Assembly (NCBI GenBank): GCA_026708015.1
Contig: JAPOVT010000056.1
Coordinates: 62,001 to 126,000 of the forward strand
Direction of reading: 5' to 3'
From: a bacterium
Lineage (GTDB): Bacteria > Actinomycetota > Acidimicrobiia > Acidimicrobiales > Bin134
Length of the DNA stretch: 64,000 nt
The position numbers and the translations under genes were made by a program. A model generated the notes under the pieces. The model had not been told where the DNA came from. It was given only the letters and a program-made list of their open reading frames with translations, and ran no database searches. This document shows positions 9,791 to 14,709 of the stretch, in pieces. The stretch's first letter is position 1; every line of letters begins with the position of its first letter.

Positions 9791-10150
9791 ATGCCGTTTT
9801 CGTATTCGTCGGAGTTCCGGGGGATGGTGCTGGACCAGATGCGGGCTGGCCGGCCGGTGGCCGTGCTGGCCCGGGAGTTGGAGATGTGCGAGTCGACGCT
9901 GTATCGCTGGAAGCGCCAAGACCGCGCCGATCAGGGTTTGGCGCCCAAAACACCACCCGATCCTGCCGCCACGCGACCGTCGGCCGCCCCGGCGACGGCA
10001 CCTGCCCCCGATACAGCTGAACCCCCCGCTGGCGCTCCCTCATCGTCGACACAACAAACACCTCCATCATCGAGGTGTTGCGACGACCGATTGAATCCGG
10101 CCAATACACGTCGTGGGCGTTCAGCCAAAAGCTCCGAAAAGAGAACCTGA
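9791..10150 (+). pseudogene. IS3-family OrfA fragment
   Basis: The first ~45 residues match the HTH of IS3-type OrfA proteins (YSSEFRGMVLDQMRAGRPVA, then ESTLYRWKRQDRADQG), which binds the IS ends. After about 9925 the usual leucine-zipper coding sequence is replaced by low-complexity Pro/Ala/Thr sequence, so the gene is truncated by the internal deletion or by frameshift decay. The product is predicted to be non-functional. Confidence 0.75.
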
Positions 10151-10389
10151 TCCAGTCACTGGGCACCACAGGCGACGCGTTCGACAATGCCGTGGTCGAA
10201 GCGTTCTGGGCGCGACTGCAAACCGAGCTGCTGGACACGAAGAAATGGAAGACCCGCACCGAGCTGGCCACTGCGGTCTTCGACTGGATCGAGATCTTCT
10301 ACAATCGGACCCGGCGCCACTCATCGCTCGGCAACATCTCACCCGCCGAGTACGAGAAACGCCACCAACAACAACCACACGCCGCCTAA
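10021..10389 (+). pseudogene. IS3-family OrfB C-terminal remnant (DDE integrase core end)
   Basis: The open frame after TGA 10018-10020 encodes the C-terminal third of an IS3 transposase: SGQYTSWAFSQKLR, TTGDAFDNAVVEAFWARLQ with the last acidic catalytic residue, and the tail FYNRTRRHSSLGNISPAEYE. The N-terminal HTH and the first two Asp residues of the DDE triad are missing, so the protein would be inactive. It is in a different frame from the OrfA fragment. Confidence 0.8.
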
Positions 10390-12896: not shown

Positions 12897-13760
12897 CTAG
12901 TCCAGTTCCAGCATCTGGTCGACAACCGCAGCCATAGCGGCAGGGTTGCGCTCAACCTCTCGGGTTTGGCCGCCGGCGTCGAGGAACCGCTGCATCAGAG
13001 GCACGTGCTGGCCGGTAGCGGAGCAGGCCATCATCGCCTGGGTTTCGGTCAAGAGTCCGGGCTCCACTGGTCCGAGGGCAGCATCCACGGCTTGCTTGGC
13101 CTTGGTAATCGACAACCGCGGCGATGCGGCGATGCGACGGGCCACCTGGGCGGTGTGGGCCCGAAGCTCATCGGAGGGCAGCACCCGGTTGACGTAGCCG
13201 ATGGCTGCGGCTTCCTCAGCGTTCACATCGTTGCCGGACAAGACAATCTCCAGTGCCCGGCTGCGGCCCACTAGTCGGGCCAGCCTTTGGGTTCCGCTGG
13301 CCCCGGGAATGATGCCCATGGCCACCTCAGGCTGGCCCAACATGGTGCGAGGTCCGGCGAAGCGCATGTCGAGCGACAGCAGAAACTCCGATCCGCCACC
13401 CCGGGCAACGCCGTCGATCATCCCGATGGTGGCCACCCCGATAGTTCGGCACCGGTCGAAGGTGACCGCGGCCATGTTGGGCTCGGCGGGCACATCAGCA
13501 GAGGCCTCCATGGCCAGGATCTGCTCTACGTCTCCGTGCATCAAGAAAAACTCCGGATCCGCGCTCTCAAACACCAGCACGCTGACATCGTCGCCTGCTT
13601 CATTGGCAGCCTCGACCGCGTTCAGCAAGCCGATCAACCCGCCGATCAAGACTCCGTCTACCAGCTGCTTGGGCGGATGGTCGATCACCACCCAGCCGAT
13701 GCCGTCGTCAACGCTTAGCGAAAACGGGCCAAATGTTTGCTCACTTGCTTGTTCATTCAT
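12897..13760 (-). CDS. Enoyl-CoA hydratase/isomerase family protein
   Basis: 287 aa from ATG 13760. It overlaps the upstream nitroreductase stop by 8 nt (ATGAATGA), so the two are co-translated. Crotonase fold: GIGWVVIDHPP at the start, CoA-pocket segment VLVFESADPEFFLMHGD, then GVARGGGSEFLLSLDMRFAG and PEVAMGIIPGASGTQRL. The usual catalytic Glu pair region is retained in part, so hydratase or isomerase activity is plausible but not certain. Confidence 0.8.
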   Translation of the reverse strand: MNEQASEQTFGPFSLSVDDGIGWVVIDHPPKQLVDGVLIGGLIGLLNAVEAANEAGDDVSVLVFESADPEFFLMHGDVEQILAMEASADVPAEPNMAAVTFDRCRTIGVATIGMIDGVARGGGSEFLLSLDMRFAGPRTMLGQPEVAMGIIPGASGTQRLARLVGRSRALEIVLSGNDVNAEEAAAIGYVNRVLPSDELRAHTAQVARRIAASPRLSITKAKQAVDAALGPVEPGLLTETQAMMACSATGQHVPLMQRFLDAGGQTREVERNPAAMAAVVDQMLELD

Positions 13761-14370
13761 GAGTGCCCTCCCATTCATTCCAGAAACAGACTTCAGACAA
13801 TGGCCGGCGCCGTACCGGGCCGAACGGTACCGCGGGCCACCCCATCGGGATGCCGCACACAATGTGAATGTCATCGGGAATCCCAAGCACCTCTCGCACC
13901 TCATCGGCTTGGAAGGTGTGCAGCGTGGTCAGAACCGTGCCCAATCCCAGGCTGCGAGCCGCCACCAGGAGATTCTGCACCGCGGGGTAGATCGAATGGC
14001 TCACTCCCCGCTGGGTGGAGCACACGATGATAAGTACCGGCACGTCGCCAATCTCGCGGGCGAACTTGGCAGCCTTCTCGACGATAGCGGTCTCTTGGTT
14101 TCGCAGCCATTGGGTGCCGGCCGCGGCTGGATTGTTGTAGGCCTCTTCCTGGGCGTCCAGGTACAGCTCGCCCAACCGGCGGCGCTTCTCAGGATCAGTA
14201 ACCACCACGAAGCGGGCGAACTGGCCGTTGATGGCGCTGGGGGCTCGGATGGCCGCGTCCAGCACCTGGGTGATCAACTCCTCGGGAACCGGGTCGGGTC
14301 GATAGCGCCGTACCGCCCGCTGGGTGTGCATGGCCTCGAACACGCCGACTTCGGCGGTTGCTTGGTTCAT
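13753..14370 (-). CDS. Nitroreductase-family FMN oxidoreductase
   Basis: 205 aa from ATG 14370. Hallmarks are AMHTQRAVRRYRPDPVP at the N-terminus (FMN phosphate-binding Arg residues), DAAIRAPSAINGQFARFVV, and PAVQNLLVAARSLGLGTVLTT with the C-terminal GIPMGWPAV. These dimeric enzymes use NAD(P)H to reduce nitro, quinone or enone groups. It is followed by the overlapping crotonase and lies head-to-head (66 bp) with the SelW-like selenoprotein gene, a possible redox link. Confidence 0.82.
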   Translation of the reverse strand: MNQATAEVGVFEAMHTQRAVRRYRPDPVPEELITQVLDAAIRAPSAINGQFARFVVVTDPEKRRRLGELYLDAQEEAYNNPAAAGTQWLRNQETAIVEKAAKFAREIGDVPVLIIVCSTQRGVSHSIYPAVQNLLVAARSLGLGTVLTTLHTFQADEVREVLGIPDDIHIVCGIPMGWPAVPFGPVRRRPLSEVCFWNEWEGTHE

Positions 14371-14424
14371 GGGCGCAGAGAGTAGTGGGCGATGAAATGA
14401 ATAGGCTGGCCACGCTCTCGGCGG

Positions 14425-14430
14425 TAGCCT
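14425..14430 (+). promoter_or_regulatory. -10 box of the SelW-like selenoprotein gene
   Basis: TAGCCT lies exactly six nt before ATG 14437. The same spacing is seen at several other genes in this window, implying leaderless transcription from ATG 14437. It supports a gene start upstream of both TGA codons and not at the GTG at 14500. Confidence 0.5.
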
Positions 14431-14436
14431 GCACCC

Positions 14437-14709
14437 ATGGCGCAAAAGCACCGCATCACCATCACCTATTGAGTTCCTTGAAACTATTCCGAGCACGCCG
14501 TGAGCGCTGCCAAGGACTTGCTTCAGAACTACCAGCACATCATTGAGGATCTGACCCTGGTGACTGGTGCATCGGGCATCTTCGACGTGGAAGTCGACGG
14601 TGAGATGCTCTATTCCAAATACGCCACCGACTGCCACGCCGACCCCGGCGAGGTGCTCAAGCTGTTTTCCGAGCAATACGCCCAAGGAGTGCTTGTCTAC
14701 GGCTCGTAA
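14437..14709 (+). CDS. SelW/Rdx-family selenoprotein with U-x-x-U motif (two in-frame TGA codons)
   Basis: 90 residues if TGA at 14470 and 14479 are read as selenocysteine (U12 and U15). The frame then gives HRITITY-U-VP-U-NYSEHA followed by DLLQNYQHIIEDLTLVTG, GIFDVEVDGEMLYSKY and a short C-terminal helix. This is the complete thioredoxin-like Rdx fold (SelW, SelT, SelH and bacterial Cys homologs), whose redox motif after the first strand is CxxC or CxxU. Both TGAs fall exactly on the two motif cysteines. A SECIS-like hairpin follows at 14493-14510 and a -10 box precedes ATG 14437. Likely role: thiol-disulfide or selenide redox chemistry in the cytoplasm. The alternative of a truncated pseudogene from GTG 14500 is less likely because both interruptions are TGA and only at motif positions. 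Confidence 0.85.
14493..14510 (+). promoter_or_regulatory. Candidate bacterial SECIS element for the U-x-x-U gene
   Basis: GCACGC (14493-14498) pairs with GCG-(C)-TGC (14504-14510, one bulged C), leaving the loop CGTGA (14499-14503). The loop begins 17 nt after the second TGA and 26 nt after the first. Both distances fall in the ~16-37 nt window known for bacterial SECIS, and a G is among the first two loop bases as required for SelB binding. Confidence 0.65.

Follow-up and report, generated by a model that had tools for sequence, protein, structure and literature searches.

A SelW-like gene with in-frame UGA codons at both positions of its redox motif in a genus of Acidimicrobiales

A short reading frame in a genome of the order Acidimicrobiales is broken twice by TGA, each time at a position of the redox motif of SelW-like (Rdx family) proteins, which raises the question of whether the gene encodes an enzyme with selenocysteine (Sec) at both positions of its active site. 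The frame runs from 14437 to 14709 on the forward strand of the window, the 64,000-nucleotide stretch of DNA analysed here. Its translation comprises 90 residues, begins MAQKHRITITYUVPUNYSEHAV... and ends at TAA (14707–14709); the two TGAs, at codons 12 (14470–14472) and 15 (14479–14481), are the only in-frame stops inside it. The frame, its coordinates and the placing of TGAs at residues 12 and 15 on the Rdx motif positions had been proposed in a sequence-only reading of this DNA and were confirmed. Standard annotation under translation table 11 yields just a 69-aa fragment starting at GTG 14500, from which the active site is missing.

The encoded protein belongs to the SelW-like/Rdx family. 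With TGA read as Cys, the frame matches PF10262 (Rdx) with E 2.2e-16 (60.2 bits against a cut-off of 22.6) and the SelT/SelW/SelH subfamily model TIGR02174 with 43.2 bits (cut-off 34.2), thus passing the curated cut-offs for Rdx membership. An AlphaFold2 model of the 90-aa protein, with a mean pLDDT of 91.7, displays the thioredoxin-like Rdx topology of strand, helix, three strands and helix (strands at 5–11, 36–43, 49–53 and 56–60; helices at 18–35 and 72–81), with the redox motif placed after strand 1. Its best PDB matches in a Foldseek search are the SelW-related structures 3dex and 2fa8 (TM 0.80–0.83). No Pfam domain other than Rdx was found at E 0.001, and the protein therefore does not contain the peroxiredoxin-like domain by which SelL is recognized.

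The redox motif of this protein is U-V-P-U. Both UGAs align with a Cys or Sec of homologues, and the protein is conserved on either side of them. Codon 15, the position of the second and ancestral Sec of the CxxU motif, is TGA in all order homologues read. Codon 12 is TGA in 16 of 16 members of one clade within the genus, as read in the DNA of independent assemblies that include two single-contig chromosomes (OX638344 and OX638350). The remaining homologues read, four in the genus and others across the order, have TGC or TGT at codon 12 and TGA at codon 15. With TGA at codon 12 in every one of the 16 genomes, the gene lacks the Cys that a CxxU-type SelW with a single Sec carries at the first motif position, and within the Rdx family it is classed as a UxxU variant rather than a CxxU member.

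TGA codons were counted in samples at genus and family, order, class and phylum level, all inside one phylum. Among the 22 genomes of the genus and family set, 16 have two TGAs, four have one and two gave no match. The order sample of 397 genomes contains Rdx in 111, every match with one or two TGAs, and those with two are confined to the window's genus. At phylum level (396 genomes, Rdx in 56), two TGAs occur only in the window's own genome, and in the class sample one TGA is present in all but one among the matches listed, which stop short of the weaker ones. A Cys-only Rdx is found in none of the 111 Rdx-positive order genomes, whereas such forms do occur elsewhere in the phylum. The sequence-only reading would have been undermined by truncated forms in closely related strains, or by homologues without protein similarity across 14437–14500. 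Instead, the close relatives carry the same two UGAs without truncation, and the N-terminal part is strongly conserved among homologues.

The restriction of UGA12 to one clade, with Cys12 and UGA15 in the other homologues, indicates that Cys changed to UGA at position 12 once, and one substitution at the third base is all that separates TGY from TGA. When residues 12 and 15 are masked, the SelW phylogeny places all UxxU sequences together (90/82; 88% of bootstrap trees), with a CxxU pair from the same genus, G016 and G004, as their sister. The SelA tree is too poorly resolved to bear on the monophyly of the UxxU genomes, for which it required three changes; one of its outgroup rows, G048, stands on an implausibly long branch and is probably a misreading. 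The adjoining nitroreductase gene has diverged among the UxxU genomes by a median of 31% and a maximum of 43% at fourfold-degenerate sites, so too little time does not explain why all 16 genomes have kept TGA12. Kept throughout the clade beside so diverged a neighbour, the double TGA is more than chance. One further genome, G021, groups among the UxxU genomes by SelA, yet is without SelW and without a close nitroreductase copy, which we attribute to segment loss or an assembly gap.

The genome also carries the genes for Sec decoding. Its assembly (3.5 Mb, about 96% complete) contains selA, selB, tRNA-Sec (selC) and selD, the set whose presence the earlier reading had asked to be checked. The tRNA-Sec has the anticodon tca, scores 67.5 bits and is also called by ARAGORN, and selA and selB are adjacent and overlapping in one cluster (TIGR00474, 399 bits; TIGR00475, 297 bits). 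The selD gene itself has one in-frame TGA, located within the canonical HGAGU motif (HGAGUAGK; L064 1500–1560), and this second selenoprotein thus supports active Sec decoding. Across 60 relatives, selA is present in 26 of 27 SelW-positive genomes and in 18 of 33 SelW-negative ones (Fisher p 3e-4); it was not found in one UxxU genome, G013 (93% complete). Reassignment of TGA in the genetic code is rejected, since TGA ends 23 of the 44 long ORFs of the window as well as the nitroreductase gene next door.

Downstream of both UGAs, a bacterial SECIS-type hairpin occupies 14493–14510 (+), with the apical loop CGUGA at 14499–14503 and one bulged C. The loop lies 26 nt from UGA12 and 17 nt from UGA15. 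These distances and the loop sequence had been given correctly in the sequence-only reading, but as distances to the beginning of the hairpin; they run to the apical loop, and the stem starts at 14493. In the published bacterial SECIS model, a loop of 3–9 nt with a G in its first two positions lies 16–37 nt from the UGA and tops a stem of 4–16 bp with an energy of -7.5 or lower (PMC13188914). The hairpin found here fits this model, with a loop of 5 nt, 6 bp plus one bulge and -11.6 kcal/mol. Both distances fall within 16–37 nt, in keeping with the earlier proposal that one element could serve both UGAs.

Conservation and covariation provide the evidence for this hairpin. Within the clade, no other stretch of the gene's DNA stays invariant for as long as 14487–14511, which spans the hairpin, and codons without synonymous change make up 8 of the 8 scorable there compared with 20 of 50 elsewhere (p 0.0016). 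Among 26 distinct sequences of the order, both partners have changed in four of the five stem pairs, the loop GU is kept in all 26, and the covariation score is equalled by none of 500 shuffles, with slid registers failing. The folding energy of the single sequence does not differ significantly from that of synonymous shuffles (-11.6 versus a mean of -9.4 kcal/mol, p 0.20), which is why the case is built on the comparative data, and an Rfam scan of the region gave no match at E 1. The UxxU clade has a bulged version of the stem that also occurs in the two CxxU relatives nearest to it; the change in the hairpin is therefore older than the second Sec.

The surroundings of the gene are shared across the clade. 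A divergent nitroreductase-family gene (13753–14370, -; PF00881, E 3.4e-28), already recognized as the head-to-head neighbour in the earlier reading, and a downstream cytochrome P450 gene (14733–16016, +; PF00067, E 6.6e-30) stand beside every UxxU locus, at 84–95% and 88–94% identity, respectively. Neither was found near CxxU loci within the flanks examined. The -10 box that had been reported six nt ahead of ATG 14437 is indeed there, as the TANNNT element TAGCCT at 14425–14430 (+), and is kept in 15 of the 16 UxxU loci, with TAGTCT in the other. The interval 14371–14436 is a divergent promoter region, in which the nitroreductase gene has TACTCT at 14379–14384 on the minus strand, 8 nt before its ATG. 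Judged from the DNA, the SelW and nitroreductase mRNAs are both probably leaderless. Elsewhere in the window, IS3-type transposase remnants were recognized by eye at 9791–10389, in frames with AFDNAVVEAFWARLQTELLD and YNRTRRHSSLGNISPAEYE. A plasmid blastn search gave no match.

We consider the gene to encode a SelW-like thioredoxin-fold oxidoreductase with Sec at both motif positions, its two UGAs read via one hairpin and its UxxU form of single origin in the genus, with a probability of roughly 90%. In so short a gene, two stops near the 5' end could also be the mark of a pseudogene or of a sequencing error that broke the frame. The relatives refute this, with the same stops in 16 genomes, both single-contig chromosomes among them, a protein conserved on both sides and no homologue in the order sample that lacks a TGA, leaving such an origin with a negligible probability. 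A 69-aa protein without the motif, started at GTG 14500 with the upstream codons untranslated, has the advantage of being the ORF given by table 11, but is rejected as exceedingly improbable on four counts. Codons 1–21, which cover the first strand and the CxxU motif, show protein-level conservation throughout the order; in L040, ATG is swapped for GTG at the proposed start; the -10 element six nt before ATG 14437 is conserved; and GTG 14500 sits inside the hairpin loop.

An unlikely explanation, to which we nevertheless give some weight, keeps Sec at UGA15 and lets UGA12 be mostly misread, as Cys or another amino acid, or act as a terminator. UGA12 would then not supply a second catalytic Sec but exact a selenium-dependent toll on expression. 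Sec decoding is generally leaky, and the hairpin is common to the CxxU relatives, with no new element specific to UGA12. Two successive UGA decodings on one hairpin would, moreover, lower the yield if termination competes, a point against the double-Sec protein. However, UGA12 falls exactly on the redox Cys column and is kept in all 16 genomes, and a codon one base from Cys could easily drift back if Sec were not favoured. The distance of 26 nt from UGA12 to the loop is well within the model range, and the loop Cys that arose in this clade suggests an altered redox chemistry.

For the double-Sec protein, the features of the locus suggest a route of synthesis and evolution. SelB and tRNA-Sec would read UGA12 and then UGA15, the one SECIS hairpin, with its loop 26 and 17 nt downstream, being used for both, and Sec would be inserted at each. 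Position 12 would have become Sec once in the genus, through a change of a TGY Cys codon to TGA upstream of the pre-existing hairpin, and would have been retained since. The resulting Sec-Sec pair may cycle between diselenol and diselenide, or may follow a selenenylsulfide cycle.

The loop cysteine mentioned above, which the sequence-only reading had not noticed, sets the UxxU proteins apart. Cys66 (codon at 14632–14634, +) is the only cysteine left in the protein, and a Cys at 64–66 occurs in 16 of 16 UxxU proteins and in none of the 23 distinct CxxU sequences read. In all 23 of the latter, Cys12 is the sole cysteine; one sequence shows another C ahead of the Met proposed as its start. The two UxxU subclades place their loop cysteine differently, at residue 66 in five genomes (YATDCHA) and at residue 64, with or without 65, in eleven (DDC[CM]RH), with no cysteine outside 64–66 in any of the 16 proteins. 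Judging from the strand order of the fold, the loop after strand 4 may lie at the sheet edge that also carries the motif following strand 1. The Cys at 64–66 may have a redox role, and could act as a resolving or metal-binding residue. More tentatively, and with rather more doubt than belief on our part, the clade may have evolved a three-chalcogen centre, in which a Sec-Sec diselenide would be opened or resolved by the new loop Cys (C66, or C64 with or without C65), by way of a single-base Cys-to-Sec change that borrowed the existing SECIS.

Bacterial SelW-like proteins of the CxxU type (PF10262) share family, fold, gene size, the position of the second Sec and the downstream position of the SECIS with the protein described here, and direct CxxU relatives occur in the window's own genus. 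They differ in having Cys first and one Sec, whereas here Sec is predicted at both positions and a loop Cys is present at 64–66. Reports of UxxU SELENOW exist for amphioxus and for Ostreococcus lucimarinus (PMC7539508, PMC3473315, PMC2375036). These proteins have the same family and double-Sec motif but are eukaryotic and were reported as isolated cases, in contrast to a motif fixed across a bacterial clade with its SECIS within the coding frame. Eukaryotic SECIS elements sit in the 3' UTR.

Among proteins outside the Rdx family, SelL is described, in the part of PMC2397514 that cites Shchedrina et al. 2007, as a Prx-like UxxU protein with a diselenide bond from aquatic organisms including marine bacteria. 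So described, it sets a precedent for diselenide formation at a UxxU motif; it shares the motif and a thioredoxin-type fold with the protein studied here but belongs to the peroxiredoxin-like family. Other bacterial UxxU families with two Sec that are likewise not Rdx are Prx-like 2 in GOS, the metal-binding protein NF041115 and an FmdB-type regulator (PMC2398784, PMC13188914). Reviews of prokaryotic selenoproteins from 2022 and 2026 give only CxxU for SelW-like proteins (with one Sec in the 2026 table) and UxxU for other families, and the Sargasso and GOS surveys give SelW as CxxU. The sequence-only reading had cautioned that a double-Sec form might already be known; amphioxus and Ostreococcus lucimarinus bear this out in part, but for bacteria no UxxU SelW was found in the open-licence literature searched, and an earlier report elsewhere is possible. 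The same literature yielded no study of Acidimicrobiia selenoproteins. We therefore regard the UxxU SelW as new in bacteria, within a known family.

Second Sec residues are rare. In this genus, the ancestral CxxU and the derived UxxU forms coexist one codon change apart and with the same SECIS, so that the benefit of a second Sec is testable by single-residue swaps. The decoding of two UGAs 9 nt apart by one bacterial SECIS and the role of the compensating cysteine are open to tests in the same way. The clade is thus a natural setting in which to ask how cells come to build an active site with two selenium atoms, and why they do so.
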